Shown one piece after another: positions 3,484-29,380 of a stretch of 36,054 nucleotides of DNA (positions are counted from its first letter, which is position 1; every line of letters starts with the position of its first letter). The stretch covers positions 1 to 36,054 of the forward strand of contig NZ_QJTI01000030.1 in the NCBI RefSeq assembly GCF_003217325.1. Direction: 5' to 3'. The notes beneath the pieces were generated by a model, which was given only the letters and a program-made list of their open reading frames with translations, did no database searches and was not told the DNA's origin. This DNA comes from Rhodopseudomonas faecalis (GTDB lineage Bacteria; Pseudomonadota; Alphaproteobacteria; Rhizobiales; Xanthobacteraceae). Made by a program: the position numbers and the translations under genes.

Positions 3484-3789
3484 GGAAAACTCCTTTACGC
3501 TCGGCAGGGCGATGCCGCGGCGATTGCGGTCATGCGCCATCCCAGCTGCGGCATTGATGCAGCCTGCGCACCGCGCCGTCTGTGACGATGTCACCCGTAC
3601 AAGGATACGTCGAATGGCCTGCAAGCGGTTCAGCGCTCGCTTGCGCGATCGCTGGCACGGGCGAACACGCCTGTAGGACAAATTGACGCGCCTCAATGAA
3701 GGGGGCCGCGGATCAGCTCAGCCTTCTCATCCAAGAAAGCCAAGTGATCGCCGACAGTTTTGCGTGGGCCAGGCAGCCGAGGGGCGCCG
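3484..3789. promoter_or_regulatory. Divergent promoter region between kinase and Cys-rich operon
   Basis: Non-coding stretch between two divergent genes. The only clear element is the inverted repeat at 3683-3696, described separately. No sigma-70-type promoter could be assigned by eye. Confidence 0.5.
3683..3696. promoter_or_regulatory. TTGA-N6-TCAA box (Crp/Fnr-type operator candidate)
   Basis: TTGACGCGCCTCAA has both TTGA and TCAA half-sites at Fnr/FixK spacing, 94 bp upstream of the Cys-rich operon start and about 200 bp upstream of the kinase start. Its inner six bases (CGCGCC) differ from the CGRCCG of the best copies elsewhere in the window, so it is the weakest of the five complete boxes. 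Confidence 0.45.
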
Positions 3790-5004
3790 ATGAGGACTCG
3801 TGCAGATGGCTGGTGGACTCAGCTTGCGGCTCTGATCGCCGCGCTGATGCTATGGGCGCTGGCTTCATCACCGGCGAAGGCCGGATGCAGCGCCGAGGAC
3901 TTGGTCAATTCCTGGGTCGATACCGCCTATGCCGCCTATGACTGCAAGTCGGTCTATGCCAATGCCGCCACCCGCGCCGCCGCGCTGGCGCTGACCGCGG
4001 CGCTGACCGGCGTCGCGCTGCAAGGCTCCGACACCGGCAAGGGCCAAGCGCTGGTCAATCAGTTCTGCAATGAGGCGCAGGGCAACGCTGACCAGATCGT
4101 CTCCAAGCTCAACACCATCTTCGGCAATGCGATCGCCAAAGAAGTGCTCGGCGATCTGTCTGATCAGCTGGCCGCGCTCGGCGCCGCCGCCGACGTCGTG
4201 AAATGCTCCTGTAAGAGCGAGCAGAGCACGGTCGGGCTGGCGTCCGGGGTCGGCTCCTGCATCGAAGAGGGGCTGTGCTGGCTGCAGGAAAAGCTGCACA
4301 TGCAATCCTGCGACAGTTGCACGCGGCCGCCGCCGACGCGCGCAGTGTGTGCGGCGACCAACATCCCGGTCAAGGACGGCCGCACCTGCGAAAGCTACAC
4401 CTATCTGGAATGGCACAGCCATCCGCAATGCGCCAATATCGGCGGTCCCGGCTCGATCGTCAGCCCGTCGAAGAATGGCGCCTTCAAAGATACGTATGGC
4501 CGCTATGCGGTGATCGTGGTCGAGACCGCTGACGGCACGCTGGTGACGACCGATCCTGGCGCCAATGCCTGCCATTCCGGCACGCTCTATTGTGTGTGCC
4601 CAAAACCGATGGTGCCGCATTGGCAGATGATCCCGAACCCCGGTTCGGGCGATTCTAAATATGTATTTGCCTGCGATTGCCCGAAGGGCACCCATCCTGG
4701 CGTCACCAAGCCGGATGGCTTGTCGGAATGCCTGTGCGACGACACCAATCAGGTCGCCAATTTTGGCTTTGCGCCATTCGGCATGTGCCCGGCGCCGGCC
4801 TGTCCTGCCGGGCAGAGCCGGCTTGGCGGAGACAAGGACGCGACGTGCGTGACGCCGTGCGCCGATGCCAAGCAAGGCATGGGGTTTGACGGCAGTTGCT
4901 GCAATCCGGCGCAGATGACGAATTGCGGCGAGTGCTGCCCGCCGGACACCGTGCCGAACGTCAAGACCGGCTCCTGCGAGCCGCGCCCGAAACCGCCGAA
5001 ATGA
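3790..5004 (+). CDS. Secreted cysteine-rich protein of unknown function
   Basis: 404 residues. It starts with a Sec signal peptide: MRTRADGWW, a hydrophobic stretch rich in Leu and Ala, and SPAKA before a likely cleavage ahead of GCSAED. An alpha-helical, alanine-rich segment follows (about residues 32-140), then a cysteine-rich remainder with motifs such as CSCKS, CVCPKP, CDCPKG and a C-terminal CGECCPPDTVPN-type module. The start at 3790 was chosen because GAGGGG lies 5 bases upstream; an in-frame start at 3760 would put extra residues before the signal peptide. The stop overlaps the next gene start as ATGA, so the two are probably translationally coupled. The Cys pattern implies a disulfide-bonded envelope or extracellular protein. 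I do not recognise a named family. Confidence 0.82.
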   Translation: MRTRADGWWTQLAALIAALMLWALASSPAKAGCSAEDLVNSWVDTAYAAYDCKSVYANAATRAAALALTAALTGVALQGSDTGKGQALVNQFCNEAQGNADQIVSKLNTIFGNAIAKEVLGDLSDQLAALGAAADVVKCSCKSEQSTVGLASGVGSCIEEGLCWLQEKLHMQSCDSCTRPPPTRAVCAATNIPVKDGRTCESYTYLEWHSHPQCANIGGPGSIVSPSKNGAFKDTYGRYAVIVVETADGTLVTTDPGANACHSGTLYCVCPKPMVPHWQMIPNPGSGDSKYVFACDCPKGTHPGVTKPDGLSECLCDDTNQVANFGFAPFGMCPAPACPAGQSRLGGDKDATCVTPCADAKQGMGFDGSCCNPAQMTNCGECCPPDTVPNVKTGSCEPRPKPPK

Positions 5005-8913: not shown

Positions 8914-10134
8914 TCATTCGCCGGCGTTCAATCGATGTGATGCAGATGGGCTGGCGGTGATGGTCGCCAGCCGTGCCGGTGCTGAGCGCAGCGCTGCCTT
9001 CTGCTGGCGCTGGGCGCGTTGCGGCGCCAGCGTGTCGGCATAGGCGGCGACCGTCAGTTCGGCGATATGGCTCCAATCATAATCGCGGATGTTGTCGCGG
9101 CCGACGGCGTGGCGCTCGAGCGGCGGCTCGGGCTCGGCGGTCAGCGCGGTGATCTTGGCGGTCAATTCCGCAACGTCGCCCATTTTGAAGGTGCGGCGCC
9201 GATCGCTGATCACTTCGAGATTGGACGGGATGTCGCTGACCAGCACCGGCAGGCCGTAGCTGAGCGCTTCCAGCAGCACGATCGGCAGTCCTTCATGCGA
9301 CGATGGCAGCACGAACAGCCCGGCATGGGCATAAAGCTGGCGCAGCGTCTCGCCGGTCTGGAATCCGGTCATCACGACATTGTCAGCCTGAGCGGCTTCA
9401 GTGGCGAGCTGATCGGCATAGGCGTTCTGATGATCGATGCGGCCGACGATCGCGAGCTTCCAGCCGGGCAGGCGGGCCGCGACGAAGGCGCGCAGCACGT
9501 CGAGCTGGCGCTTCTCTGGCACGAGGCGACCGACCGTCAGCAGATAGCGGCCTGGCTCCAGGCCGAGTTCTTCGATCTGCCCGCTCTCCATGGGCGGATA
9601 GGAAAACTGCACGCCATTGGGTATGACGTCGCACGGCTTGCCGTATTTGGACGCGATCAGCCGCTCGATGCTGCGGCTGATGGCGATGCGCTTATTGGCA
9701 AAGCGCATGCCCAGCAATTCGCCGGCGCGCAGCACGGTGCGCGCCGCGAGCCCCCACTTCTCGCGATCATAATCCTCGCCGTGATGGGTGACGACGACGC
9801 GCAGTCCCATCAAGCGCAGCAGCGGCGTCACGAGCGCCGGGCCGATGCCGTGCACATGCACCAAGGCCGGGCGGCGCACGCCGGCCGCGACCGCGCAGAT
9901 CAGGGAGTGCAGCAGCGTCTCGAAATAGGCGTTGCGGATGGTCCATAGCCGCAGCAGCCGCACGCCGCGCCAATGTTTGGTATCAGCGGGCACATAGGGC
10001 GAGCGCGTGCAGGCGGTGACGCGGTGGCCGCGGGCCACCAGCCGCGGCGCCAGATGCTGGACGTGGGTTTCAATGCCGCCCTGGACTTCGGGGAAGCCGC
10101 GGAAGCCGAAGATGAACACCTCATTGCGACTCAT
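8914..10134 (-). CDS. Glycosyltransferase family 4
   Basis: 406-residue GT-B fold enzyme, predicted to add a sugar to the lipid-linked EPS repeat unit in the cytoplasm. The N-terminus has the acceptor-side glycine loop GFRGFPEVQGGIETHVQ. The C-terminal donor domain shows TVGRLVPEKRQLD and the E-x7-E motif in EGLPIVLLEALSYG. The start at 10134 (MSRNEVFIF) has GGAG 8 bases upstream; a 10-residue longer in-frame form lacks a site. First gene of the minus-strand pair with the Wzy-like gene, and divergent from the GT4 gene at 10465. Donor and acceptor sugars cannot be read from sequence. Confidence 0.9.
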   Translation of the reverse strand: MSRNEVFIFGFRGFPEVQGGIETHVQHLAPRLVARGHRVTACTRSPYVPADTKHWRGVRLLRLWTIRNAYFETLLHSLICAVAAGVRRPALVHVHGIGPALVTPLLRLMGLRVVVTHHGEDYDREKWGLAARTVLRAGELLGMRFANKRIAISRSIERLIASKYGKPCDVIPNGVQFSYPPMESGQIEELGLEPGRYLLTVGRLVPEKRQLDVLRAFVAARLPGWKLAIVGRIDHQNAYADQLATEAAQADNVVMTGFQTGETLRQLYAHAGLFVLPSSHEGLPIVLLEALSYGLPVLVSDIPSNLEVISDRRRTFKMGDVAELTAKITALTAEPEPPLERHAVGRDNIRDYDWSHIAELTVAAYADTLAPQRAQRQQKAALRSAPARLATITASPSASHRLNAGE

Positions 10135-10464
10135 AGCGCTTACTCCACATCCGCGGCCGCCCATCGCCCTTGTTGATCACGGTCGCGGCGGCGTTTCGAT
10201 CGGTTGCTCGGCTTCCTCAATCACCGTCGTTGCGGCGAGCCGTGACCGCTGCAGGCAAGGCAGCGGCGTTGCCGCGACGATGAGCCAACCACCCTCGCGC
10301 AAGTTGACGACCGTCAATATCGCGGTGCAGTCGGCCGATAGGCTTTCGTCATCGGCGGTTCAAAACCGTGTTCAAGGCGACAGGAGAGGGTGGATGCGAC
10401 TGACGCGATGTCTTCGTAGCAATCGGCCGATCTCCGCCACTGTCAGCACCACGCGGGCGCTGCG
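10135..10464. promoter_or_regulatory. Divergent intergenic region between two GT operons
   Basis: 330 bp without a convincing gene. It must contain the start sites of both the minus-strand GT4-Wzy pair and the plus-strand GT4-radical SAM pair. The one clear element is the inverted repeat at 10304-10317. Core promoter hexamers could not be assigned. Confidence 0.55.
10304..10317. promoter_or_regulatory. TTGA-N6-TCAA box
   Basis: TTGACGACCGTCAA: arms TTGAC/GTCAA around GACC. It lies between divergent EPS genes, 147 bp upstream of the plus-strand GT4 start and 169 bp upstream of the minus-strand GT4 start. Same consensus and Fnr-like spacing as the boxes at 20320, 29251 and 29367. Confidence 0.7.
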
Positions 10465-11790
10465 ATGAGCGAGCTGTCGATCCCCACCACTGCCGGCGAT
10501 CCGCCGCTGCTGCGCGAACAGGCGGCGCTTGCAACATCACCACGCGAGACCGAGCAACAGGCGCGGTCGGCGCGCACCGCGCGCGGCCGCCGGCCAAAGG
10601 TGCTGGTCGCCAACAAGTTCTTTTTCCTGAACGGTGGTTCGGAAGCGGTGATGTTCCAGGAAATGGAACTGATGCGTCAGGCCGGTCTCGATGTGATCGA
10701 GATCGCGATGCAGGACTCGCGCAACCGGCCATCGGACTTTGCGCGCTACTTCGTGTCATCCAAAGACTATCGCAGCGCGTCCGGGCTTGATCAGGTGAAA
10801 GCGGCGCTGGCGCTGATCCGCTCGCGCGAGGCGATCGCGCAAGTCTCGCGCATCATCGAAGAACAGCGCCCCGATATTCTGCATTGCCACAACATCTATC
10901 ATCAGCTCACGCCGTCGATCATCAATGTCGCGGCGCGCCACCATGTGCCGGTGGTGCTGACGCTGCATGATTATAAGCCGGTGTGCCCGGTCTATACCCA
11001 GCTGTCGCACGGCCAGGTGTGCACGCAATGCGCCGATGGCGGCTTCGAGGCCGTGCTGCGCAACCGCTGCGCCGATGGATCGCTGGCGCGCAGCGCGCTG
11101 CTGTGGGCGGAGGCGCGTTATCACGCGCTGGCCGGCAGCTATCACCATGTTGCCAAATTCATCGCGCCGAGCCGCTTTATGCGGGACGCCATCTCGCGGC
11201 GCTTTGGCGACGATAAGGTCACCTATATCCGCAACGCGATCGATGCCTCGCAGATCACGCCGGCGCAGGACGATGACAATTACGTGCTCTATCTCGGCCG
11301 TCTGACGCCGGAGAAGGGCATCAAGACGCTGCTGCGCGCGCACGCTTCGGATTACGGTGATTGGCGGCTGGTGGTTGCCGGCACCGGACCGCTCGCCGCG
11401 GAATTGCGCGGCCGGTTTCCGAAGGCAGAGTTCGCGGGTCATCTGACCGGCGCTGATCTTGAGCGCGTGCTGTCGCGCGCTTCGGTGGTGGTGGTGCCGT
11501 CAGAATGGCATGAGAACAGTCCGCTCTCGATCCTGGAAGCGATGGCGCATGGCAAGCCGGTGGTGGCGTCGCGGATCGGCGGCATCCCGGAACTGGTGCG
11601 CGACGGCGAGACTGGCTTGCTGGTCGAGCCCAAAGAGATCGCGCAATTCGCGCACAGCATCCGCACGCTGATGAACGACCCGGCGCTGCGTGCGCAACTT
11701 GGCCGCAATGCCCGCCGTGTCGTGGAAACAGAACATGCGCTTAGCCAGCACGGCGCCGCGCTGCTCTCATTGTACGACAGCCTGATTTAG
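10465..11790 (+). CDS. Glycosyltransferase family 4 with Cys-cluster insert
   Basis: 441 residues. After about 45 probably disordered residues the GT-B fold begins at KVLVANKFFFLNGGSE. It shows LTLHDYKPVCPVY followed by a cysteine group (VCTQCADGG, then NRCADG), which recurs in a subset of bacterial EPS GT4 enzymes and may bind metal. The donor domain has YLGRLTPEKGIKT and the E-x7-E-like ENSPLSILEAMAHGKPVVAS. Predicted to add one sugar of the EPS repeat unit. No good ribosome binding site is visible for the ATG at 10465, so an internal start nearer residue 45 is possible. The radical SAM gene follows 24 bp downstream. Confidence 0.9.
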   Translation: MSELSIPTTAGDPPLLREQAALATSPRETEQQARSARTARGRRPKVLVANKFFFLNGGSEAVMFQEMELMRQAGLDVIEIAMQDSRNRPSDFARYFVSSKDYRSASGLDQVKAALALIRSREAIAQVSRIIEEQRPDILHCHNIYHQLTPSIINVAARHHVPVVLTLHDYKPVCPVYTQLSHGQVCTQCADGGFEAVLRNRCADGSLARSALLWAEARYHALAGSYHHVAKFIAPSRFMRDAISRRFGDDKVTYIRNAIDASQITPAQDDDNYVLYLGRLTPEKGIKTLLRAHASDYGDWRLVVAGTGPLAAELRGRFPKAEFAGHLTGADLERVLSRASVVVVPSEWHENSPLSILEAMAHGKPVVASRIGGIPELVRDGETGLLVEPKEIAQFAHSIRTLMNDPALRAQLGRNARRVVETEHALSQHGAALLSLYDSLI

Positions 11791-11814: not shown

Positions 11815-12948
11815 ATGGACCTGACCGTCATCTCGACCTTCCGCTGCAACTCACGCTGCCAGATGTGCTACATCTGGAAGAATCCGACCGAACCGAAAGA
11901 GGAAGTCTCGCTGGAGACGCTGTCGAAACTGCCTGACGGCTTCGACAATCTCAACGTCTCGGGCGGCGAGCCGACCTTGCGCAAGGATCTGCACGAGATC
12001 GCCGACCTGCTCCATCCCAAAGCGCGGGTGATGGAGATTTCCTCGAACGGCCTGCATCCGGAACGGCTGCTGCCGATCATCAAGAAGTATCCCAACATCA
12101 AGGTGCGGTTCTCGCTGGAAGGCGACCAGCAGACCAGCGACTCGATCCGCGGCGAGAAGGATGGCTACGCCACCAAGGTCGCGGGGCTGCGCATGCTGCG
12201 CGAGGCGGGCGGCACCGATCTCGGCTTCGCCATGGTGATCCAGGACGAGAATGTCGACCAGCTGGTCGATGTCTATGAATTCGCTCGGCGTGAGGGTTTT
12301 GAACTGGCAACCTCGACGCTGCACAACGCCTGGCAGTTCTACAAGAACGACAACTACTTTTACGATCGTCGCGCCGTGGCCCATAAGGTCGAGGGACTGA
12401 TCGAGGCGATGTTGCGCAGCAACAAGCCGAAGAACTGGTTCCGCGCCTATCTCAATCTCGGCCTGATCGAGAAAATTCTCGGCCATGACCGGCTGATTCC
12501 GTGCAGCGCCGGCCGCGATTTCGCCTTTATCGATCCGTGGTCCGATGTGTGGGCCTGCAATGTGCGCTCCGATCTGCCGATGGGGAACCTGGCACGGCAG
12601 TCGTGGGACGAGATCATGAATAGCGATCAGGCCGAGCATACCCGCGGCAAGGTCGCGCGCTGTGACCAGAATTGCTGGATGGTGACCACCGCGCGCACCG
12701 CGATGCGTTCCAATCTGGTTCCGCAGATGCCCAAGCTCGAACCGATGCTGTGGGTGCTGAAGAATAAGCTCAAGGTGTCAATGGGCAAGAGCGTCTGCTT
12801 CAATAGCTACATCAACTACGGCGACGTTCGGCATTCGCCGCTGGTGAAGCGCGCATCCTATCTTGGAACCGGCGAAAAGGCGCATTTGGTGAAGGGCCGG
12901 GTCTCGGTCGATGAGCATTATCCGCTGAAGACGTTCGTGAACAACTGA
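11815..12948 (+). CDS. Radical SAM protein with SPASM/twitch-like C-terminus
   Basis: 377 residues. The N-terminal CNSRCQMC (C11, C15, C18) is the CxxxCxxC motif that binds the catalytic 4Fe-4S cluster with S-adenosylmethionine, followed by the glycine-rich NVSGGEPTLR. Further cysteines at about 230, 248, 283 and 287 (CSAGRDF, WACNVRS, RCDQNCW) resemble an auxiliary-cluster SPASM/twitch region. It sits 24 bp behind the GT4 gene, so it is probably co-transcribed with EPS genes. That suggests a modification of a sugar, a lipid carrier or a peptide, but the substrate is unknown. No small precursor peptide gene was recognised next to it. Confidence 0.88.
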   Translation: MDLTVISTFRCNSRCQMCYIWKNPTEPKEEVSLETLSKLPDGFDNLNVSGGEPTLRKDLHEIADLLHPKARVMEISSNGLHPERLLPIIKKYPNIKVRFSLEGDQQTSDSIRGEKDGYATKVAGLRMLREAGGTDLGFAMVIQDENVDQLVDVYEFARREGFELATSTLHNAWQFYKNDNYFYDRRAVAHKVEGLIEAMLRSNKPKNWFRAYLNLGLIEKILGHDRLIPCSAGRDFAFIDPWSDVWACNVRSDLPMGNLARQSWDEIMNSDQAEHTRGKVARCDQNCWMVTTARTAMRSNLVPQMPKLEPMLWVLKNKLKVSMGKSVCFNSYINYGDVRHSPLVKRASYLGTGEKAHLVKGRVSVDEHYPLKTFVNN

Positions 12949-15358: not shown

Positions 15359-15430
15359 CGCCAACGCTGCGTGAGAACCGGCGCGGGCCGTGGGCCTGCG
15401 CGTCTGTCGTCAATCGATGCAGAGCCAACA

Positions 15431-18948: not shown

Positions 18949-20244
18949 TCACGGAACGAGATGGGTCTCCGGAATCGGGATCGCGAATTGACAGCCCCAG
19001 TCGCGCGCGAAAGCGAGCTGCGCCATGATCTCGTTTTTCAGATTCCACGGCAGGATCAGGATGTAATCCGGCTTGGTGACGCCGATCCGCTCCGGTTCGT
19101 AGATCGGAATATGCGTGCCCGGCAGCAGCCGGCCTTGCTTATGCGGGTTGCGGTCCACCGTGTAGGCGATCAGATCGGTGCCGATGCCGCAGAAATTCAG
19201 CAGCGTGTTGCCCTTGGCCGGTGCGCCATAGCCGACCACGGTCTTGCCGGCGCGCTTGGCGGCGTGCAGGAAGTCCAGCAAGGTCTGCTTGGTGCGCTGC
19301 GCGCGCTGATCGAAGGCGAGATAACCGCTGAGCGTATCGAAACCGGCGTCGATCTCGCGGTTGCGCAACGATTCCACGCGCGCTGATATCGGCTGGCGGC
19401 CGCGATTGGTGTGCTGGGCATAGATGCGCAATGAGCCACCATGGGTGCTCAGTTCCTCGACATCGAAGATCGTCAGGCCATGCGCGGCGAAAATTCGCTC
19501 GACGGTCAGCAGCGAAAAATATGAGAAATGCTCATGATAGATGGTGTCGAGCTGGCACTCGGCATAGAGCCGCATCAGATGCGGAAACTCCATGGTGATG
19601 ATGCCGTGGTCGGCGAGCAGCACGCGCAGGCCGCTGACGAAATCATTGAGGTTGGGCACGTGCGCCAGCACGTTGTTGCCGATCAGAAGATCGGCGCGCA
19701 TCCCTTCGCGGCGCAGCTTGCGGGCATTGGCCTCGCCGAAGAATTCCACGCGGGTCGGGATGCCCTTGGCGCGCGCTACTGCTGCGACGTTCTGCGCCGG
19801 TTCGATGCCAAGCACCGGGATGTCGCGATCCACGAAATACTGCAGGAGGTAACCGTCATTGCTGGCGATCTCGACCACGCGGCTGCGTGCGTTCAGTTCA
19901 AAGCGCGCGGCCACCGAGGCGACATAGGCCTCGGCATGGCGTAGCCAGGACTCGCTATAGGACGAGAAATAGGCGTAGTCGCTGAAAATCGCGTCTGGGC
20001 TTTCCCATTCCTCGAGCTGCACCAGCAGGCACTTCTCGCACACATAGACCCGCAGCGGAAAGAACCGCTCGTCCTGGTTGACCTGATCGGGCTTGAGATA
20101 GGTATTGGCGAGCGGCGACTGGCCGAGATCGACAAACACGTGTTCGAGCGGTGTGCCGCAGAAACGGCAGCCGCCATGAGCATGCGTGATCGGCGGCATC
20201 GTTCCGACGTCAAGCGTGTGAATGGCGGTGTCGTTGCTCAACAT
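18949..20244 (-). CDS. SAM-dependent sugar C-methyltransferase (TylC3/NovU-like)
   Basis: 431 residues. An N-terminal zinc-binding module (CRFCG and CEKC) is followed by a Rossmann methyltransferase core (VVEIASNDGYLLQYF, LLIGNNVLAHVPN) and a C-terminal Methyltransf_14-like domain with VVGYGAPAKGNTLLNF and ILILPWNLKNEI. This three-part layout belongs to enzymes that C-methylate NDP-4-keto-deoxysugars, usually at C3, producing branched sugars. With the RfbF-like, epimerase and SDR genes nearby, it argues that the polysaccharide contains a branched deoxyhexose. First gene of the transcript that includes the DUF4910 gene, with an inverted-repeat box about 75 bp upstream. Confidence 0.9.
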   Translation of the reverse strand: MLSNDTAIHTLDVGTMPPITHAHGGCRFCGTPLEHVFVDLGQSPLANTYLKPDQVNQDERFFPLRVYVCEKCLLVQLEEWESPDAIFSDYAYFSSYSESWLRHAEAYVASVAARFELNARSRVVEIASNDGYLLQYFVDRDIPVLGIEPAQNVAAVARAKGIPTRVEFFGEANARKLRREGMRADLLIGNNVLAHVPNLNDFVSGLRVLLADHGIITMEFPHLMRLYAECQLDTIYHEHFSYFSLLTVERIFAAHGLTIFDVEELSTHGGSLRIYAQHTNRGRQPISARVESLRNREIDAGFDTLSGYLAFDQRAQRTKQTLLDFLHAAKRAGKTVVGYGAPAKGNTLLNFCGIGTDLIAYTVDRNPHKQGRLLPGTHIPIYEPERIGVTKPDYILILPWNLKNEIMAQLAFARDWGCQFAIPIPETHLVP

Positions 20245-20319
20245 CGGGTGCTCCTATCTGTGTTGTGATGCTCGTTGTTTCAGGTTGAGTTGAGGTTAGG
20301 TGGACCGCACCGAGATTAG

Positions 20320-20424: not shown

Positions 20425-21000
20425 CTAGGCCGATGCCAGCAGATCCATCCGGGCAAGCCGATCATCGCCATCGACTGCGATCGGTGCCCAGTTGCGGTCG
20501 CGCTCGGAAATCACGGTAATCGGCAAGGGCCAGGCAATTGCGAGCAGCGGATCAGCGTAGTTGAGGCCGCCAGAAGCATTGGGCGCGTAAGCCTCGCCGA
20601 TCAGGTAGGACACTTCAGTATCATCGACCAGCGTCAGAAAGCCGTGTGCGAACCGCTTGGGAATATAGAGACCGCGGCTGTTGTTCGCCGAGAGAATTGC
20701 GCTGACATGGCGCAGATAGGTCGGGGATTCGGGGCGCAGATCGATGATGACGTCAAAGATCGCGCCCCTGGTGCAGCGCACGTATTTGGTTTCCGCATCG
20801 GGCGGAAACTGAAAATGCATGCCGCGCAGCGTGCCGCTGCGCCGGTTGTAGCTGAGGCTGGCCTGGGCGACGGTGAAGTGAAGCCCATGCGCGGCGAATT
20901 CATCAGTGCAGAACACACGGCCGAAATGGCCGCGCTCGTCTTCGTGACGTTCGACATCGATCGTGTAAGCGCCAGCGAGCGCGGTTTCGGTGACGATCAT
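20425..21000 (-). CDS. dTDP-4-dehydrorhamnose 3,5-epimerase family (RmlC-like)
   Basis: 191-residue cupin. It epimerises C3 and/or C5 of an NDP-4-keto-6-deoxyhexose. The catalytic His is in GTLRGMHFQFPPDAETKYV, which also supplies the conserved basic residue; FAHGFLTLVDDTEVSYLIGE and YADPLLAIAWP follow as expected. Length is normal for RmlC. No rmlA, rmlB or rmlD is present in the window, so its substrate may be the CDP-linked intermediate made through the RfbF-like enzyme rather than dTDP-rhamnose. It follows the small membrane protein gene by 21 bp and is likely co-transcribed with it. Confidence 0.9.
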   Translation of the reverse strand: MIVTETALAGAYTIDVERHEDERGHFGRVFCTDEFAAHGLHFTVAQASLSYNRRSGTLRGMHFQFPPDAETKYVRCTRGAIFDVIIDLRPESPTYLRHVSAILSANNSRGLYIPKRFAHGFLTLVDDTEVSYLIGEAYAPNASGGLNYADPLLAIAWPLPITVISERDRNWAPIAVDGDDRLARMDLLASA

Positions 21001-21210: not shown

Positions 21211-21267
21211 GCGACCCTCCATGCATTGCCATGATGCAGGACGATAGCGGTGGTGCCAGATGGAAAC

Positions 21268-21281
21268 CTGATAACCGTCAA
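21268..21281. promoter_or_regulatory. Degenerate TTGA-N6-TCAA box
   Basis: CTGATAACCGTCAA matches the TTGACGACCGTCAA form at 11 of 14 positions and keeps the entire right half (ACCGTCAA). It is 58 bp upstream of the small membrane protein and epimerase genes. Weaker than the five complete boxes but in a fitting position. Confidence 0.4.
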
Positions 21282-21861: not shown

Positions 21862-23343
21862 CTAGTAAGCGCGATCGGATTTCATCACGTGGATCACGGT
21901 CGCGAGCAAAATCCTGATATCGAGCCACAGCGACCAGGATTCGATGTACCACAGGTCGCTCTCCACCCGGCGTTGCATCATGCCGAGTTCGGGGGTCTCG
22001 CCGCGGAAGCCATTGATCTGCGCCCAGCCGGTGATGCCGGGCTTCATCTTATGGCGCTGCGCGTAGCTGGCGATCAGCCGGTCGTATTCGGTGTCGTGCG
22101 CCAGCGCGTGCGGACGCGGCCCGACCAGCGACATCTCGCCCCGCAGCACATTGATCAGCTGCGGGATCTCATCGATGCTGAGCTTGCGCAGCAATTGGCC
22201 GAGGCTGGTGACGCGCTTGTCATTGCGGGTGGCTTGAACGATCACGGCGCCGTCATCGGCCGTGGTCATGGTGCGGAACTTGTAGATTCGGAACGGCCGG
22301 CCGTTGAAGCCGGCCCGCTGCTGCAGGAACAACGCTGGTCCACTCGATTCCAGCCGCACCGCCGCGCCGATCACCGCGAACAGTGGCAACAGGGCGACGA
22401 TGCCGGAGGCCGCCAGCACGCGGTCGATGCCCTGCTTGAGTGCGCGCTGCGCCGCGCTGAGCGGGGCGCGCTGCAATTGCACGGCCTTGGTGGGACCAAG
22501 TTCGCACACTGGACGATCGAGCACCCGGCAGATCGAACTATCCGGCACCAGCTTGATCGGAATCGGCAGCACGCGCAGCGCGCGTTCGATGTCGTGGATC
22601 ATGTCCGGCTTCGTCCACGGGATCGCCAGCACGATCTCGTCGGCGCCGATCTCGCGGGTGCGGCGGATCACTTCGCGGATCAGTTGCCGGCGTTCCTCAT
22701 CATCAACCGAGCTATTGCTGGGCGGCAGCGCGAATTTCGCCTCAACGCTGTGGCCGAAATCGGCAAGCCGCGGCAGCGCTGGATTGGTGACGAATTCCTC
22801 GGCGAGACCGACCAGCACCAGCCGGTTGGGCCGGAACGCGCCGGAACGGATCACCCGGCTGCAAGTGTGCACGATCAATAGCCGCGTCGCGGCGACGCCG
22901 AACAACCCGCTGACGAACAGCACCAGGATTTGACCGCGCGAGAACGACGCGCCGACCTTGAGCAGAAACGCGAGAAACGCCAGGAACAGGAACACCGACA
23001 GCCACACCAGCGTCGCGCGCGTGACCTGCCAATAGCGCCGCACCAGATTTTCGGTCTTGTACAGGCCGCTGGCGTGGCCGAACGCCGAGAACAGCAACGC
23101 CACCGCGAGGCCGATGCCGATCTGCTGCTCGAGATCGCCGCCGCTGCTGTAGCTGCCGCCGATTGCCTGCGCCAGCAGCTCATAGATCAGCCCGGCGCCG
23201 CCGCCGAGCATGGCGATCCATGCCAGATCGAACAGCGCCACCAGCGGCGTCAGCACGCTGAGCGATGCTGGAACCGTGACCGGCTCAGCGGCCAGTCGAC
23301 CCATGACACCAGGCTGAGAACCGGCATTGCGAACATGAGACAT
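21862..23343 (-). CDS. Undecaprenyl-phosphate sugar phosphotransferase (WbaP/WcaJ-like)
   Basis: 493 residues. An N-terminal membrane region of four to five helices and a CoA-binding-like central domain precede the bacterial sugar transferase domain. The latter shows FNGRPFRIYKFRTM, LRKLSIDEIPQLINVLRG, MSLVGPRPHA and MKPGITGWAQING. It transfers a sugar-1-phosphate, commonly glucose or galactose, from a UDP-sugar to undecaprenyl phosphate and so starts the EPS repeat unit at the inner membrane. GGAGG sits about 8 bases upstream of the ATG at 23343. The Crp/Fnr regulator gene ends 39 bp upstream on the same strand, so regulator and priming enzyme are probably one transcript, closed by the hairpin at 21806-21835. 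Confidence 0.92.
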   Translation of the reverse strand: MSHVRNAGSQPGVMGRLAAEPVTVPASLSVLTPLVALFDLAWIAMLGGGAGLIYELLAQAIGGSYSSGGDLEQQIGIGLAVALLFSAFGHASGLYKTENLVRRYWQVTRATLVWLSVFLFLAFLAFLLKVGASFSRGQILVLFVSGLFGVAATRLLIVHTCSRVIRSGAFRPNRLVLVGLAEEFVTNPALPRLADFGHSVEAKFALPPSNSSVDDEERRQLIREVIRRTREIGADEIVLAIPWTKPDMIHDIERALRVLPIPIKLVPDSSICRVLDRPVCELGPTKAVQLQRAPLSAAQRALKQGIDRVLAASGIVALLPLFAVIGAAVRLESSGPALFLQQRAGFNGRPFRIYKFRTMTTADDGAVIVQATRNDKRVTSLGQLLRKLSIDEIPQLINVLRGEMSLVGPRPHALAHDTEYDRLIASYAQRHKMKPGITGWAQINGFRGETPELGMMQRRVESDLWYIESWSLWLDIRILLATVIHVMKSDRAY

Positions 23344-23382: not shown

Positions 23383-24036
23383 CTAATCCCCGGCGATGCG
23401 AATCAGGCCGGGTAGATTGAGGTAAGTGATGGTTTTGCGGTTCGGCATATCGATCAGCCCCTTGGCCTTGAACTCAGCCAAGGTGCGGCACACGGTTTCC
23501 AGCGAGGTGCCGACGTGATCGGCAATATCGGCGCGCGGGATCATCATCAACAGCGCATGCGGCCGCTTTGGATCGGTCGGCAGATGGCGGCGGATGCGCA
23601 GCAGGAACGCGGCGATCCGGGCGACGCTGTTCTTCTGGCTCATGGTCACCACCAGCGACAGCGTGTCGGTCAGAACCTGATGGGCACCGCAAGGTTCGCC
23701 AGACTGGCAGATCGATGCGACCGGCGAGCGCACCACGCGGCAGTTGGTCACTGCCTCCGCGGTGAATTGTTGGCAGGACGCCTGCGTGGGCCTGACCACG
23801 TCGCCCGGCCAATAAAAAGCCAGGATTTGCCGGTTTCCATTCTCCAGCAAGCGGACCGCACGCACCACCCCTTCGACGATCAAGATCTTGTCGGCGTGGT
23901 GATCGCCTTCCCAGAACAGGGCGCGGCCACGGGGCAGCAGCGAGGTTGGGGGGGAACGGACCTCACTGCAGGTGCTAATGGGTGGAACAACCCGGCGCGG
24001 GTAGGTGGAGATCGACGGAGCCATCAACGTTGACAT
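23383..24036 (-). CDS. Crp/Fnr-family transcriptional regulator
   Basis: 217 residues from ATG 24036, with GAGGG about 9 bases upstream; a GTG at 24078 would add 14 residues. It has a cNMP-binding-like beta-roll (ALFWEGDHHADKILIVEG, FYWPGDVV) and a C-terminal Crp-type winged helix (MIPRADIADHVGTSLETVCRTLAEF). The recognition helix has E180 and R184 with C183 between, equivalent to Fnr E209, S212 and R213, which read a TTGA-like half-site. No Fnr-type N-terminal CxxCx-type cluster is evident, so oxygen sensing by Fe-S is not supported. It lies directly upstream of the priming transferase, and several TTGA-N6-TCAA boxes occur in this locus. Regulation of EPS genes is a well-supported inference, not shown. 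Confidence 0.9.
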   Translation of the reverse strand: MSTLMAPSISTYPRRVVPPISTCSEVRSPPTSLLPRGRALFWEGDHHADKILIVEGVVRAVRLLENGNRQILAFYWPGDVVRPTQASCQQFTAEAVTNCRVVRSPVASICQSGEPCGAHQVLTDTLSLVVTMSQKNSVARIAAFLLRIRRHLPTDPKRPHALLMMIPRADIADHVGTSLETVCRTLAEFKAKGLIDMPNRKTITYLNLPGLIRIAGD

Positions 24037-24427
24037 GAACGCAGCCCTCAACTTTCGACTGCACCCACGCTGACACACTCACCTGATTTGCATAACTGCG
24101 CGCATGATCTAAGCGCCTGCATGTTCCTCTTAGGCCAGTTGGCCTAGTTCATGTAGCGCGAAAACTAGTCGTCAGCGTGATAGAAGGCGGGTTCCGCATC
24201 ACTTGGCGGCAATCAGCACGCCGAATGTGCTCATCACGGCACGATTCGCAGGCATTTCGGCGATCGAAAACTCCGCGTGACGGTCTAACGAGGTTGCTGC
24301 CGGGGCGCGCAGTTGTACGTGCGATTTGCACTCGCCGACAGCTTGCTCCATTCTGTGATCAGCAAGCGTTTACAAGCCGTGAACATCGCCGCTCATCGAC
24401 ATTGCCCACGTCGATGCTGTTGAAGCG
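24037..24427. promoter_or_regulatory. Divergent region between Crp/Fnr and Wzx genes
   Basis: 391 bp with lower GC than its surroundings and no convincing gene. It contains the 16-bp palindrome at 24131-24146 and a looser inverted repeat at 24341-24367 (GCTTGCT...AGCAAGC, 13-base gap) about 60 bp upstream of the Wzx start. No TTGA-N6-TCAA box was found here. Core promoter elements could not be assigned. Confidence 0.5.
24131..24146. promoter_or_regulatory. Palindrome, candidate operator of the Crp/Fnr gene
   Basis: TAGGCCAGTTGGCCTA has perfect 7-base arms (TAGGCCA/TGGCCTA) around GT, about 95 bp upstream of the Crp/Fnr start codon. No U-tract follows, so it is more likely a protein binding site than a terminator. 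The binder is unknown, and the sequence is unlike the TTGA boxes. Confidence 0.5.
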
Positions 24428-25771
24428 ATGATGGCGAGCCGACCCGATCGACCGGAGGATGACGATTTGCTCGCAGCCATCCGCAAGTTGAGGCATCACG
24501 CGCCGCCAACGCGCGCCGCGCTGCTGGTTTCAGCGACGATCGTGCCGATGCGGGCCGCGATCATCGCCTGCAAATTCGGCCTCGCGATCTTCATCGGCCG
24601 TTATCTCGACCTCGCCTCGCTCGGTCTGTACGGCCTGTTTGCCGGCGCGATTGCGATCACCCCGGTGGTGGTCAGCATGGGGCTGGTGCATGTCATCATG
24701 CGCGAAGCGGTGACGCTGCCGCGCAACCAGCTCGTCAATCATTTGCGTCATTATTGGCTGTTTGTGGTCGCGGTCTATGGCGTGCTGCTGGTGCTGACGG
24801 GGCTCGCCGTTGCGCTGCTTGGCGCGTCATCGCTGTTGATCCTGGTGCTGCTGATCATCCTGTTCGAGCATCTCGGCAACGACGTGTTCCAGCTGTTCAC
24901 CAATCTGGAACTGCCGGTGATCGCCAATGTCAGCGTGTTTCTGCGCGGGGCCGCGTGGATTTTGGTCTATGTGCCGCTGGCGATTTTCATCCCGGAACTG
25001 CGCAACATGGCCGCGTTGCTCAGCTTCTGGCTGGCTGGCAGCATCGCGTCATTCCTGCTGTTCGTCTGGGCGAGCCGCGGCTGGCCGTGGCGGGCGACAT
25101 TCGCCATGCCGTTCCACAGCAGCTTCATCTGGCTGACCATCAAACGCTCCTTTGTGATCTATCTCAGCGATCTCGCCTTCATCGGCAGCCAGTTCATCGA
25201 TCGCTATCTGGTGACGCTGTTCCTCGGGCTGGAACTGACGGGCGTGTATTTCCTGTATTGGTCGGTGGCGAATGCGGTGACCACGCTGGTCAGCATCACG
25301 ACGCTGCAGGTGCAGCGGCCGCGTTTGATCAAGGCGCATCATGAGGGCGGCGCAACCAGCCATCGCGATCAGACCGTCACTTTTCTCAAAATCACGGCGC
25401 TGACGACCGCAGCCTTCATCGTTGCGGCTGGCGGGGCGTTCCTGTTGATTCTGCCGATCTTGAAACAGCCGGCGGTCGGCGATCATCTCGGCGCGTTCTG
25501 GCTGATCATGGCTGGCATGGCAGCGCGCAATCTCGCCGATTTCGGCGCGATGGTGCTGTTTACCGCGAGGCGCGACGGCATCATGACCGTGACCAACGTG
25601 GTCGCTGTGGTGGCACTGGTCGCCGCCCAGTCCGCGCTGTTGCCGCTGGCCGGGCTGCGTGGCGCTGGCGCGGCGATCCTGCTGACATTCTCGGCGATCG
25701 CGATCTGGCGCTTTGTGCTGGTGTTCGGCGCCTGGCCGAAGGCTCAGGTCGCGGCGCCCGGCAACGCCTGA
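24428..25771 (+). CDS. Wzx-like lipid-linked oligosaccharide flippase
   Basis: 447 residues with about twelve predicted membrane helices in the layout of the polysaccharide transporter (MOP) superfamily. The N-terminal region includes FIGRYLDLASLGLYGLFAG; a central FIGSQFIDRYLVTLFLGLE resembles the start of the second half of Wzx/MATE-fold proteins. Predicted to flip the undecaprenyl-diphosphate-linked repeat unit to the periplasm, upstream of the Wzy-like protein and the co-polymerase. Two adjacent ATGs (24428, 24431) are possible starts; the ribosome binding site is weak. Transcribed alone and divergent from the regulator-priming transferase operon. Confidence 0.87.
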   Translation: MMASRPDRPEDDDLLAAIRKLRHHAPPTRAALLVSATIVPMRAAIIACKFGLAIFIGRYLDLASLGLYGLFAGAIAITPVVVSMGLVHVIMREAVTLPRNQLVNHLRHYWLFVVAVYGVLLVLTGLAVALLGASSLLILVLLIILFEHLGNDVFQLFTNLELPVIANVSVFLRGAAWILVYVPLAIFIPELRNMAALLSFWLAGSIASFLLFVWASRGWPWRATFAMPFHSSFIWLTIKRSFVIYLSDLAFIGSQFIDRYLVTLFLGLELTGVYFLYWSVANAVTTLVSITTLQVQRPRLIKAHHEGGATSHRDQTVTFLKITALTTAAFIVAAGGAFLLILPILKQPAVGDHLGAFWLIMAGMAARNLADFGAMVLFTARRDGIMTVTNVVAVVALVAAQSALLPLAGLRGAGAAILLTFSAIAIWRFVLVFGAWPKAQVAAPGNA

Positions 25772-25914: not shown

Positions 25915-26622
25915 CTACATGCTGGACGCGCGCACGCTGCCCATGCCTTTGATTAAGAAACGTTTGCTCTTGAAGCGCGGCGCGGTCTGTGTGGTCGAGC
26001 GGATCAATTTGGCCGCAATGAAGGCGGCTTCGGTGCGGTTGCGGGCGCCGAGCGCGCGCAACAACGCGGCGGTGTGGATCTTGGTGGTGCCCTCGGCAAT
26101 GTTCAGATGCCGAGAGATTTCCTTGTTCGACATGCCTTGCGCGATCAGCGGCAGAATATCGTTCTGGCGGCGCGTGAGCCTCAGCGTCTCCAGCTCGATG
26201 TTCAACGCCGACGGCTCGTCCGACAAGCTGCCGTGCCCGTCAGCGAGCCAGCGCGGCACGTAGATACGGCCCGACAGCAGATCAGTAATCGCGGTCAAAA
26301 GTTCGTCGTCGCTCTGCAGCTTGTGAACGAAGCCGTGGAAACCGGCCGACAAGCAGGACAAAACGTCGGATCTTGTATTGGAGGCTGACATCACTGCGAA
26401 CCGGGTTTCAGGCCGCAGTGCCAGAGCTTCTTTCAGCAATTCCAAGACGCGGAAATTCAAGCACGCTGCGTCAACGAGTATCAGATCATAATAGTGATTG
26501 GTGGCGAACCGCTCCGCCCCCGAAGCTTCAAAGACTGTGGCTCTTTCGATCTTCTTCTCAATCAGCTCGCGGAGACCGCTACGATATACGCCGTGTTCGT
26601 CGATCAATAAGATCACTGACAC
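25915..26622 (-). CDS. NarL/FixJ-type response regulator with LuxR HTH
   Basis: 235 residues. The receiver domain starts VSVILLIDEHGVYRSGL with the acidic pair D/E, the phospho-acceptor Asp is in LILVDAACL, the switch Ser is in VMSAS and the Lys is in FVHKLQ, so it looks phosphorylatable. The C-terminal LuxR helix-turn-helix reads LTRRQNDILPLIAQGMSNKEI and GTTKIHTAALLRALG. The start is a GTG at 26622, chosen because GAGGG lies 8 bases upstream and because receiver domains normally begin just there; the open frame continues to an ATG at 26748 but adds 42 residues with no domain. No sensor kinase gene is adjacent. A role in EPS control is likely from position only. Confidence 0.87.
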   Translation of the reverse strand: MSVILLIDEHGVYRSGLRELIEKKIERATVFEASGAERFATNHYYDLILVDAACLNFRVLELLKEALALRPETRFAVMSASNTRSDVLSCLSAGFHGFVHKLQSDDELLTAITDLLSGRIYVPRWLADGHGSLSDEPSALNIELETLRLTRRQNDILPLIAQGMSNKEISRHLNIAEGTTKIHTAALLRALGARNRTEAAFIAAKLIRSTTQTAPRFKSKRFLIKGMGSVRASSM

Positions 26623-27211
26623 GATACGACCCTCAAAGTTAGCCCCCAATGAACCGAGTTGAAATAGCCCCTCTTTGAATTCCCGGTTCACGACGCGGGA
26701 AAAATGGTGTCCATCGAAAACGCCGCTTCTGATCATTGGAAGCAACACAAAATTCTAGTCACATTTGTCGAAAGGTTGCAAGACGTCGCTCGCGCGAAGC
26801 GCTGCGTCTCACTACCCGAGTGATGCGAAACCGCAGATACTTTCGACGAATAGTTAATCACGGCTCCTGAAACAAACCGTAACACCAGAAACAAATTACT
26901 TCGTCAGCTATGCATTGTTGGTCTGCCGAGTGATTAGTAGCAGTGACTGTAAAATGATCGACGTCCTCCAGGCGAACGGGATGCGGCGTGTCGCCTGCTC
27001 TTTGGCCGTTTTGCGAGAAAATCAGCCGTTTCGTCTGCACGTGCAGCGTGTGCTCTCGGACAGATGCGTCCGCAGGGTGCCAGGTTCGCCGTGATTGCTC
27101 GTAGTTCTACGGGAACAGCGGTCACAATTGCCGGAGCGTGGAACTAAACCCAAATCGCCGGAACTGCATAGCTGTCCCGGCGAGTCGTGATGCTAATTAA
27201 TCGTCATGGTA
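26623..27211. promoter_or_regulatory. 589-bp intergenic region upstream of the response regulator
   Basis: The longest non-coding gap of the window, noticeably richer in A+T than the flanking genes. I see no credible gene: the open frames at 26858-27125 have no ribosome binding site and odd composition. It should contain the promoter of the response regulator and, at its right end, the terminator of the RfbF-SDR operon. No TTGA-N6-TCAA box was found. Given its length, a small RNA or a long 5' leader is possible but not shown. Confidence 0.5.
27156..27182 (-). terminator. Possible terminator of the RfbF-SDR operon
   Basis: The arms CGCCGG (27156-27161) and CCGGCG (27177-27182) form a 6-bp GC stem. 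On the minus strand ATTTGGGTTT follows, an interrupted U-tract, about 30 bp past the SDR stop codon. Confidence 0.4.
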
Positions 27212-28318
27212 TCAGTGCGCCGTTGCGGTTGCTCCTTTGAAAATAGTTGCGCGCGGAACGGTCGCTGGCGTCACCAGCGGGATCACGTCGTCGACCGGCG
27301 TCCACAGCAGCTGCGGATCGAGCTGGTGGGTTTGCCGCAGGTGGCGAAGCTCTGACAGGCGCGTGAAAGGCGCCGCATTGAAGGTCGCTTCATCGAGTTG
27401 AATGCGATCGAACACCGTCTTCAATTGCTGCGCGCCGCGCTCCGCGCTCCATTGGCACATGAAGCCCGGCATGTGCTGGCGGATTTTTTCGAACGAGACC
27501 CGATAGCTGCGATTGTCGCCGCCGCTGCTGCCATAAGAGATTTCGCAGCCGGGGAAGGTGCGGTTCACCACCTCGGCGATCTCGCGCACGATGTAGTTCT
27601 GCGCGTCGTCACCGACATTGAACGCTTCGCCGCACACCGCCTCGCGCGGTGCTTCCAGCGCGCACAGGATCGCCTGGCAGATGTCGTCGATATGGACCAG
27701 CGGCCGGCACGGGGTGCCGTCGCTCATCACGCGAATCTGTTTTGTGGTGTAGGCGACGCCCGCGAGATTGTTGAGCACCAGATCGAAACGCTGGCGCGGC
27801 GAGGCTCCGAACGCGGTCGCATTGCGCAGGAAAACCGGGGTGAACCGGCTGTCGATCATTGCGCTGAGATCGCGCTCGACCAGCACCTTGCAGCGGGCAT
27901 AGGCGGTCTGCGGATTGAACGCCGAGGTCTCGGTCTTCATCTCGGAGCCTGCGGCGCCATAAATGCTGCAGGACGACGCATAGATGAATCGGGACACGCC
28001 GGCCGCTCGGCACTTGCGCGCGAATTCGATCGAGCCGCGATGGTTGATCGCCATCGTGATCTCCGGATCATTCTCGCCGAGCGGGTCATTGGACAATTCG
28101 GCGAGATGCACCACCGCGTCGAAGCCAACGAGGTCCGATTGCTTGATCTGGCGGACATCGCGGGTGATCACCATCGGCCGGGTGCGGCGGTCGTCAAACA
28201 GCCAGCCGCGGCGATACAGACCGGTGTCGATGCCGGTGGCGGCGTGGCCACAGCCAAGCAGCTTCGGGCCCAGCACCGCGCCGATATAGCCGTCTGCTCC
28301 AGTGTACAGAATACGCAT
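27212..28318 (-). CDS. NAD-dependent epimerase/dehydratase (extended SDR)
   Basis: 368 residues. The N-terminal Rossmann motif is GADGYIGAVLG, the catalytic Ser/Tyr/Lys are in YASSCSIYG and YARCK, and HIDDICQAI and EAFNVGDD are typical of extended SDR sugar-nucleotide enzymes. It begins 9 bp after the stop of the RfbF-like gene, so the two are one operon. The N-terminus does not resemble RfbG (CDP-glucose 4,6-dehydratase); epimerase, reductase or dehydratase on a CDP-sugar are all possible. The last ~70 residues extend beyond the usual fold and may be family-specific. Confidence 0.88.
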   Translation of the reverse strand: MRILYTGADGYIGAVLGPKLLGCGHAATGIDTGLYRRGWLFDDRRTRPMVITRDVRQIKQSDLVGFDAVVHLAELSNDPLGENDPEITMAINHRGSIEFARKCRAAGVSRFIYASSCSIYGAAGSEMKTETSAFNPQTAYARCKVLVERDLSAMIDSRFTPVFLRNATAFGASPRQRFDLVLNNLAGVAYTTKQIRVMSDGTPCRPLVHIDDICQAILCALEAPREAVCGEAFNVGDDAQNYIVREIAEVVNRTFPGCEISYGSSGGDNRSYRVSFEKIRQHMPGFMCQWSAERGAQQLKTVFDRIQLDEATFNAAPFTRLSELRHLRQTHQLDPQLLWTPVDDVIPLVTPATVPRATIFKGATATAH

Positions 28319-28327
28319 GGTCGATCC

Positions 28328-29155
28328 TCACGAAATCGGCGAAGTGACGAGAGCGGGTTGAGAGTTTTGCGGCGCCGGCCGGTCCCAGACACGCCAGGGC
28401 GGATTGCCGCCGTCCCATTGTTCCTGCAGCACAGCCTTGTCGCGCAGCGTGTCCATGTTCTGCCAGTAGCCGTGGTGCCGATAGACCGCGAGCTGATCCT
28501 GATCGATCAGCCGCGCTAGCGGTTCGGATTCCCAACTGGTGGCATCGCCATCGATCATGTCGAGCGCTTCCGGCTCGATGACGAAGAAGCCGCCATTGAT
28601 CACCTGGCCATCGCGCGCGTCCTTCTCTCGGAAATGCGCGGCGCGCGGTCGATCGGACGACAGATTGATGGCGCCGAACCGCCCGGGCTGCTGCACGGCG
28701 GTCACCGTGGCGAGCGCGCCCTGCTGATGGTGGAAGTTGATCAGTTCGCGAATGTTCACGTCGCCGACGCCGTCGCCATAGGTCATGCAGAAGGTCGAAT
28801 TGCCGAGGAAGTCGCGCACGCGCTTCAGGCGGCCGCCTGTCATGCTCTTTTCGCCGGTGTCGACCAGCGTGACCTTCCACGGTTCGGTGGAGTTGCGGTG
28901 CAGCTCGACGCGGTTGTTCTGCAGGTCGATGGTGAAGTCGGCCTGGTGCGGACGATAATTCAAGAAATAATCCTTGATGATATCGCCCTTGTAGCCGCAG
29001 CAGATCACGAAGTCATTGAGGCCGTAATGCGAATAGATGCGCATGATGTGCCACAGGATCGGCCGTCCGCCGATTTCCACCAGCGGCTTGGGCACCACCG
29101 TGGTGTGTTCACTGAGCCGCGTGCCGTAGCCTCCGGCAAGGATCACCACTTTCAT
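28328..29155 (-). CDS. rfbF: Glucose-1-phosphate cytidylyltransferase
   Basis: 275 residues. It makes CDP-glucose from CTP and glucose-1-phosphate, the first step to CDP-linked deoxysugars. The nucleotide-binding start MKVVILAGGYGTRLSEHT, then PKPLVEIGGRPILWHIM, CCGYKGDIIKDYF, MTYGDGVGDV and NGGFFVIEPE match RfbF throughout, at normal family length. The start at 29155 has GGGAG about 8 bases upstream; an 11-residue extension to 29188 is unlikely. Heads the operon with the SDR gene; a TTGA-N6-TCAA box lies 96 bp upstream. Confidence 0.93.
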   Translation of the reverse strand: MKVVILAGGYGTRLSEHTTVVPKPLVEIGGRPILWHIMRIYSHYGLNDFVICCGYKGDIIKDYFLNYRPHQADFTIDLQNNRVELHRNSTEPWKVTLVDTGEKSMTGGRLKRVRDFLGNSTFCMTYGDGVGDVNIRELINFHHQQGALATVTAVQQPGRFGAINLSSDRPRAAHFREKDARDGQVINGGFFVIEPEALDMIDGDATSWESEPLARLIDQDQLAVYRHHGYWQNMDTLRDKAVLQEQWDGGNPPWRVWDRPAPQNSQPALVTSPIS

Positions 29156-29250
29156 GCTTCGTCTCCCGCTGTTGCGTTGCTCGTCCACGGCCAGCGCCAG
29201 CGGACGGCATGTTGATGCTGCGACAAGTAAGCGAGCGCGGGACCGCCAAT

Positions 29251-29264
29251 TTGACGGCTGTCAA
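29251..29264. promoter_or_regulatory. TTGA-N6-TCAA box upstream of rfbF
   Basis: TTGACGGCTGTCAA differs from the perfect palindrome at 20320 by one base. It is 96 bp upstream of the RfbF start codon, the same distance range as at the other operons. Confidence 0.72.
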
Positions 29265-29366
29265 CTTTCGATCAGTGAAACCATAGGGCGCCGACAGGCG
29301 CTGCGACGCAGCGCGCATCGTCACGACGGCTGATCGAAAATCGCTAGGCGAAGCACCATTCGCGAC

Positions 29367-29380
29367 TTGAGAACCGTCAA
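29367..29380. promoter_or_regulatory. TTGA-N6-TCAA box upstream of the co-polymerase gene
   Basis: TTGAGAACCGTCAA keeps both outer half-sites and the right-hand ACCGTCAA seen in other copies. It lies 128 bp upstream of the co-polymerase start codon. Confidence 0.68.

Follow-up and report, generated by a model that had tools for sequence, protein, structure and literature searches.

A probable dedicated Crp/Fnr-type exopolysaccharide regulon in Rhodopseudomonas faecalis and its relatives

Introduction

The closest described systems to the one reported here are regulators of the FixK type. In R. palustris, FixK acts on pioABC, an iron-oxidation target, from a TTGA-N6-TCAA box with a reported centre at −44.5, a class II position near the start site (PMC3050613, available excerpt), and 26 boxes of FixK2 are tabulated in Table 2 of PMC9104804 (available excerpt). 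The exopolysaccharide (EPS) boxes described below have the same TTGA-N6-TCAA frame. They differ from the pioABC box in having EPS targets and a centre that would lie near −40.5, and from FixK2 boxes in that positions 6–7 are mostly purines and the strong sites are confined to the EPS locus. The Crp/Fnr-type protein encoded in that locus, P0001, has the LETV.R recognition helix in common with FixK2.

In two reviews on rhizobial EPS regulation, a word search found CRP at no place but rosR of Rhizobium leguminosarum and found neither Fnr nor FixK. Neither the regulator nor the box is described in the titles and abstract openings of the PMC papers searched, a collection that leaves most of the subscription literature outside. 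The regulon is new; the regulator is of an already known kind. We propose, with a probability of roughly 0.85, that the boxes are operators of a dedicated EPS regulon to which P0001 would bind and which it would activate in the class II manner. If this is true, a soil-bacterial surface polymer could be controlled through deletion of a single gene and mutation of a single box. An EPS-dedicated Crp/Fnr activator would then span Bradyrhizobium, Tardiphaga and Rhodopseudomonas, several of the hosts coming from a genus of legume partners, and would provide a natural case in which to test how the inner-base preference of a FixK-like helix shifted.

Experimental procedures

The DNA analysed (the window) was the whole of contig C30 (36,054 nt), from the 4.07-Mb genome of Rhodopseudomonas faecalis (G000). 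Genes were assigned by Pfam and NCBIfam domain matches, and the structure predicted for P0001 was used for a check of its fold only. A symmetrised matrix was built from 68 exact sites of the window and of loci L035–L048; the near-identical L034 was omitted, and matches in coding DNA (L035:16452 and L036:16444) were dropped. Genomes G078, G122 and G102 lay outside this training set; G126 and G079 are apparently the same genomes as L037 and L048 and hence not independent of the matrix. A sixteenth P0001 match (Caulobacteraceae, 32%) was left unused.

A 24-position sequence profile (R1), whose training sites came in part from G000, G102 and G122, was run on 11 genomes; 150 first-look candidates were scored per genome, so that weak sites may be missed. 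Spacing was counted in 16 source stretches at boxes scoring at least 16, with identical cores collapsed and sites near stretch ends dropped; L037, L040, L041, L043, L044, L046 and L048 were omitted, L037 and L048 being present as G126 and G079.

Results and discussion

The window contains an EPS cluster (Table 1), in which domain matches identified two GT4 glycosyltransferases, a GT2, a Wzy-type polymerase/ligase, a priming sugar transferase, a Wzc-like GNVR protein, a glucose-1-phosphate cytidylyltransferase, a sugar epimerase/dehydratase, an RmlC-like epimerase, a C-methyltransferase and a DUF4910 protein. A C39-type ABC exporter with its HlyD partner, a radical SAM/SPASM protein, a LuxR/NarL-type response regulator and P0001 are also encoded there; the gene at 24428 gave no match in the Pfam search. 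The radical SAM/SPASM gene adjoins those of the C39-type ABC exporter and the HlyD protein (11815–12948 and 13226–17503). The HlyD protein has a C39-like domain of its own, and this arrangement in the EPS locus is kept across genera.

Table 1. Boxes, promoter-like elements and genes of the EPS locus, in window coordinates
Feature	Position	Strand	Remarks
TTGACGCGCCTCAA, probably a chance match	3683–3696	.	Matrix score 16.0, lowest of the 68 training sites
GT4a, glycosyltransferase family 4	8914–10164	-	Domain match; possible divergent target
EPS box TTGACGACCGTCAA	10304–10317	+	Between divergent GT4a (-) and GT4b (+); exact match; matrix score 27.2
−10-like TAGGCT	10339–10344	+	21 nt past the 10304 box
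GT4b, glycosyltransferase family 4	10465–11790	+	Domain match; target; radical SAM/SPASM gene next
Sugar C-methyltransferase (Methyltransf_13/14)	18949–20244	-	Domain match; target
−10-like TAACCT	20293–20298	-	21 nt from the 20320 box, on the C-methyltransferase side
EPS box TTGACGGCCGTCAA	20320–20333	.	Perfect palindrome upstream of C-methyltransferase; exact match, matrix, promoter comparison
RmlC-like epimerase	20425–21000	-	Domain match; likely target via the 21268 box
Imperfect EPS box CTGATAACCGTCAA	21268–21281	-	Matrix score 13.6; upstream of a 62-codon GTG-started ORF preceding RmlC
Priming sugar-phosphate transferase (Bac_transf)	21862–23343	-	Domain match; directly after the regulator gene; without own box
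Crp/Fnr-type regulator P0001	23383–24078	-	Likely ATG at 24036; recognition helix TSLETVCR
Palindrome TAGGCCAACTGGCCTA	24131–24146	-	Upstream of the regulator gene; TAGNCC-N4-GGNCTA, 7-2-7 layout; differs from the EPS box
LuxR/NarL-type response regulator	25915–26748	-	Kept near the Crp/Fnr gene; candidate controller of that gene
NAD-dependent sugar epimerase/dehydratase	27212–28318	-	Domain match; apparently same operon as cytidylyltransferase
Glucose-1-phosphate cytidylyltransferase	28328–29188	-	TIGR02623 above cut-off; target
EPS box TTGACGGCTGTCAA	29251–29264	-	Upstream of the cytidylyltransferase operon; exact match; TACTTG at 29224–29229, 21 nt away
EPS box TTGAGAACCGTCAA	29367–29380	+	Upstream of the Wzc-like gene; exact match; CACTGT at 29402–29407
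Wzc-like chain-length protein (GNVR)	29508–30923	+	Domain match; target

The first-pass annotation had reported five exact TTGA-N6-TCAA sites (3683, 10304, 20320, 29251 and 29367), all between genes, and a chance count well under one. All five were found again, each of them intergenic in a window that is about 13% intergenic by an approximate gene list; 0.21 sites were expected, and none of 100 dinucleotide shuffles reached five. In the whole genome the pattern occurs 67 times, against 19 for the reversed control, so that the density of exact sites in the window is about eight times that of the genome. The narrower TTGAC-N4-GTCAA occurs seven times in the genome, three of these in the window contig. 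The shared core CGRCCG proposed for the sites holds in part: it is exact in 10304 and 20320 and near in 29251, and it is found in one half only of 29367 and not in 3683. Membership of 3683 in the group was not supported either: it has the lowest matrix score of the training set and, as read from the sequence, neither of its flanks has a TA at 21 nt (see below), so it is probably a chance match.

The match to seven of eight positions claimed at 21268 is real. With 15 window sites at no more than one mismatch (10 with exactly one) and 6.9 expected, this single mismatch by itself means little; the site was kept because relatives, JSC-3b among them, have similar imperfect boxes at the corresponding position and because a TA (TATCGT, 21241–21246) lies 21 nt away. 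The coherent set consists of 10304, 20320, 29251 and 29367 with the imperfect 21268; 3683 is probably outside it. Box centres lie 82 bp from the start codon of the C-methyltransferase gene, 134 bp from that of the Wzc-like gene, 70 or 103 bp from that of the cytidylyltransferase gene (GTG or ATG start), 146 and 154 bp from those of the two glycosyltransferases flanking 10304, and about 64 bp (21268) from the small GTG-started ORF before RmlC.

R. palustris JSC-3b has an orthologue of P0001 with 99% identity, and others are present in 13 Bradyrhizobium and Tardiphaga robiniae (68–80%). All 15 of these loci contain between two and six exact sites, two of which fall inside coding sequence. The cytidylyltransferase gene is preceded by a site in 15/15 loci, and a site lies between the RmlC and C-methyltransferase genes in 14/15 (the exception is L038), so that the comparison of intergenic regions called for by the first-pass annotation found the boxes kept at homologous promoters; the related genomes in these counts are not independent of one another. 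In the resulting matrix the box is extended by an A (82%) two bases beyond its ends, and positions 5–7 favour C-G-R. Boxes also precede GT4b in JSC-3b, G078 and G122. RmlC has a box within 450 bp upstream in a minority of sources (the window, JSC-3b, G078, G122, L035, L036 and L040). An EPS box was absent upstream of the priming transferase in 10/10 sources, upstream of the response regulator gene in the 18/18 sources scanned (G102 left out), and upstream of the C39/ABC gene in the few relatives' stretches scanned.

Within 40 kb, sites of at least 18 bits numbered 10 in G078, 5 in G122 and 6 in G102, with a chance count of 0.00 for each (20 Markov sequences each). G102 is the most telling of the genomes outside the matrix: with a regulator of 60% identity and a rearranged order of genes, it still has boxes before the C-methyltransferase, cytidylyltransferase, Wzc-like and radical SAM genes. 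Further away, G328 (regulator 51% identical, with the same ETVCR helix) showed neither a box nor an EPS cluster within about 20 kb, so that this helix is not in every case accompanied by such boxes. In G329 (46%, helix ETACR), three moderate sites stood 14–18 kb from the regulator, and the C-methyltransferase gene, 45 kb away, was without a box.

In a survey of the family, an orthologue (E 1e-40 or better) was present in 9 of 296 genomes, carrying the labels of 8 genera. The sequence TTGACGNNCGTCAA occurred in 8/9 genomes with the orthologue and in 102/287 without it (Fisher p 0.002), a contrast that is modest because single matches are common; among 14 Rhodopseudomonas without the regulator, four had one such site and two had three. 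The promoter of the C-methyltransferase gene separated the genomes more sharply. A box of at least 17 bits, 73–84 bp upstream, was found in 7/8 genomes with the regulator and in 0/22 without it (p 4e-6, kinship ignored), none of the 22 regulator-less upstream regions exceeding 2 bits. For this comparison 30 loci were scanned out of 71 genomes with a C-methyltransferase match, and each match was assumed to start 1500 bases into its locus, which may misplace the short locus L143. Three of the seven positive genomes (G000, G126 and G079) fed the matrix, G014 hardly differs from G000, and the regulator-less enzymes are more distant homologues that may lie inside other operons.

A genome-wide scan, as had been proposed, was carried out for profile matches, and these were concentrated in this locus. 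In G000, 8 of 11 strand-matches were the four window boxes, the best in the genome; two were on C33 (clpB) and one on C36. Strand-matches inside the locus amounted to 16/16 in G078 (not used in training), 12/13 in G102, 9/17 in G122 and 10/14 in G014. In these five genomes the strong sites are confined to the regulator's locus, all matches with E < 0.29 being inside the cluster. The weaker outside matches (E ≥ 0.29) were those on C33 and C36 in G000, 2031772, 2528481 and 885878 in G014, and a further eight strand-matches in G122 and one in G102. Among the genomes with a distant regulator, no match was seen in G328, and the two in G329 lie close to the regulator gene. Intergenic placement in the window, conservation, concentration in the locus and the 0/22 count without the regulator all support the dedicated EPS regulon that had been the preferred reading at the outset. 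P0001 (encoded at 23383–24036) would, as a dimer, bind the extended palindrome [AG]A-N-TTGACGRYCGTCAA-N-T[CT] and activate the exopolysaccharide promoters of the locus.

The boxes stand at a fixed distance from a −10-like element, a spacing that is new here. A TA exactly 21 nt outward from the box was present in 54 of 154 flanks, the other offsets from 5 to 67 having a mean of 3.47 (sd 2.1, max 10). In 72% of the 54 flanks a T followed five bases after the T of this TA (TANNNT). A TA immediately after the box (21 flanks) is part of the extended box. Counted by box, 50/77 had the 21-nt TA on at least one side and 27/77 on neither; it was found in 3/4 of the window set, 8/11 boxes in G078, 4/5 in G122 and 2/7 in G102, that is 14/23 for the last three genomes pooled. 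The 10304 box has it on the GT4b side. At the 29367 box a CA takes its place, as before the Wzc-like gene in 6/8 sources.

Since TANNNT resembles a −10 hexamer, the box centre would fall near −40.5 from the inferred start site, which, class II sites being centred at about −41, is probably a class II activator geometry. The box would there stand in for the −35 element, and P0001 would probably make class II contacts with sigma and alpha. A repressor, occupying promoter DNA at the boxes and blocking transcription, would suit the pairing of some boxes (29251/29367, and boxes about 75–81 bp apart in several relatives); the exact class II distance to TANNNT and the lack of a −35 hexamer at its usual place (judged by eye only) speak for activation instead, and repression is considered unlikely.

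As had been claimed from the sequence, P0001 is a Crp/Fnr-type protein with an E-xx-x-R recognition helix. Its N-terminal cNMP-binding-type barrel (PF00027) and C-terminal Crp winged helix (PF13545/PF00325) scored above cut-off, and its predicted fold matches Crp/Fnr structures (mean pLDDT 75.6, disordered N-terminus). The helix ETVCR is invariant in 17 aligned sequences, and G329, outside the alignment, has ETACR. C113 and C124 are invariant and C130 nearly so in the P0001-type proteins, and the likewise invariant C197 lies inside the recognition helix at the place of FixK2's serine (SLETVCR against LETVSR, the LET..R pattern being kept). More distant matches at 28 loci comprised 23 with ETVSR, one with ETISR, one (L065) with ETVCR and three that yielded no motif.

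Oxygen sensors of the FNR type hold their iron–sulfur centre in an N-terminal cysteine cluster. No conserved N-terminal cysteine cluster was seen in the 17 aligned sequences, so an FNR-type switch is not expected; P0001 has the fold and the E...R helix in common with FNR of Aliivibrio fischeri (5e44/5cvr) and differs from it in this respect. Of the solved structures, FixK2 of Bradyrhizobium (PDB 4i2o) gave the best match by sequence (E 4.2e-13, residues 61–221); in Foldseek it ranked third, with 24% identity in the fold alignment. At the position of FixK2's C183, P0001 has Pro and some orthologues have Ser. Against the FixK equivalog NF050806, P0001 scored 68.9 bits, below the cut-off of 300. 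It is probably a FixK-like protein with a half-site preference of its own.

Such a preference would be reflected in positions 6–7, which are mostly purines (G or A) in the EPS boxes and mostly C and T in the 26 FixK2 boxes of PMC9104804 (available excerpt); the EPS boxes do not have FixK2-type inner bases. A log-likelihood ratio of the two profiles, calculated for boxes scoring at least 16 from 14 sources (3683 and 21268 lying outside), was positive in 72/75 EPS boxes and 0/26 FixK2 boxes, with one genome left out in turn on the EPS side and the FixK2 profile scored on its own boxes. At 50 other TTGA-N6-TCAA sites of the R. faecalis genome (67 in total), the ratio was below −3 in 37 and above +3 in 3. 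This separation tells against the alternative named in the first-pass annotation, a global FixK as owner of the boxes. The boxes would then be ordinary FixK/FnrN boxes, the EPS locus part of a global low-oxygen regulon and the Crp/Fnr protein of the locus incidental. We regard this as very unlikely, even with an identical TTGA-N6-TCAA frame, FixK-like paralogues in the genome at C15:56088 and C15:73942 (32 and 30% identity) and FixK2 boxes that sometimes read TTGAC in the published table (PMC9104804, same excerpt): Rhodopseudomonas genomes that have such paralogues and are without P0001 (G003, G005, G010 and G012) gave 0–3 profile matches each, the best with E 0.66.

The regulator gene itself had no EPS box (≥13 bits) within 450 bp upstream in 18/19 sources, the exception being an imperfect box (score 17) in G102, and autoregulation through the EPS box was rejected on this count. 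Another palindrome, TAGNCC-N4-GGNCTA, lies upstream of the gene. Its pattern has 10 fixed positions, of which 12 of 15 such upstream regions matched 9 or more, two matched 8 and G122 matched 7; 9 positions were reached by 0.6% of 3000 shuffled regions. These figures overstate the evidence, the consensus having been chosen from the same, related sequences. A search for the strict pattern in 15 genomes found it in 6, and only in G000 and G014 did it lie at the regulator gene.

Sites of NarL-type proteins are heptamer pairs in a 7-2-7 layout. With no EPS box and a different conserved palindrome at its gene, expression of P0001 is probably set by another factor; the candidate, by a weaker argument from gene neighbourhood, is most likely the nearby LuxR-type response regulator, whose gene is conserved in the same loci as P0001. 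That same conservation could be taken to mean that the EPS boxes belong to the response regulator and not to the Crp/Fnr protein. Both the 4-6-4 palindrome of the boxes and the E...R helix suit a member of the Crp/Fnr family, and it is the 7-2-7 palindrome upstream of the crp gene whose layout is better for a NarL-type protein, which leaves this assignment highly improbable.

With P0001 kept as the protein at the EPS boxes, a putative cascade from the response regulator to the Crp/Fnr protein to EPS is a reasonable idea. It is possibly like the two-tier FixLJ–FixK cascade, in that the genes of a LuxR-type response regulator and of a FixK-like protein lie close together (PMC9104804 and PMC4999443, excerpts of both), and unlike it in the TAGNCC-N4-GGNCTA palindrome and in a response-regulator link that is only conjectured here. 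A full FixJ–FixK-like EPS circuit, in which a NarL-type response regulator would act through the 7-2-7 palindrome on a FixK-like activator whose helix cysteine would make class II EPS activation redox-tunable, is a tentative and rather unlikely extension.

That the boxes are a product of chance or of GC content has next to no likelihood, except for 3683 where it is still likely, given the shuffles, the conservation across genera and the fixed −10 spacing, even if two sites outside the cluster, C33:5786 before clpB and C36:4083, score nearly as high as the window boxes.

The first of these (C33:5786, L029) is an exact TTGACGACCGTCAA upstream of a ClpB-type gene; it is probably fortuitous, since none of the three TTGACGNNCGTCAA sites of JSC-3b matches it. 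At the second, G000:C36:4083 (L144), and at G014:C1:2528481 (L145), an identical 24-mer box precedes a 167-codon ORF with no Pfam match. In JSC-3b (L087, G061:C1) a strong box (27.7) was seen at 9099, past the stretch matching the window's end and before a paralogue of the 32034 gene; its counterpart was absent among the profile matches of the R. faecalis assembly. The same was true of an unlinked EPS-type box in JSC-3b near G014:C1:885878 (L147, 883500–888500). A TA stands exactly 21 nt from this box, and the gene downstream, which encodes acyltransferase and aldo-keto reductase domains, is a possible extra member of the regulon.
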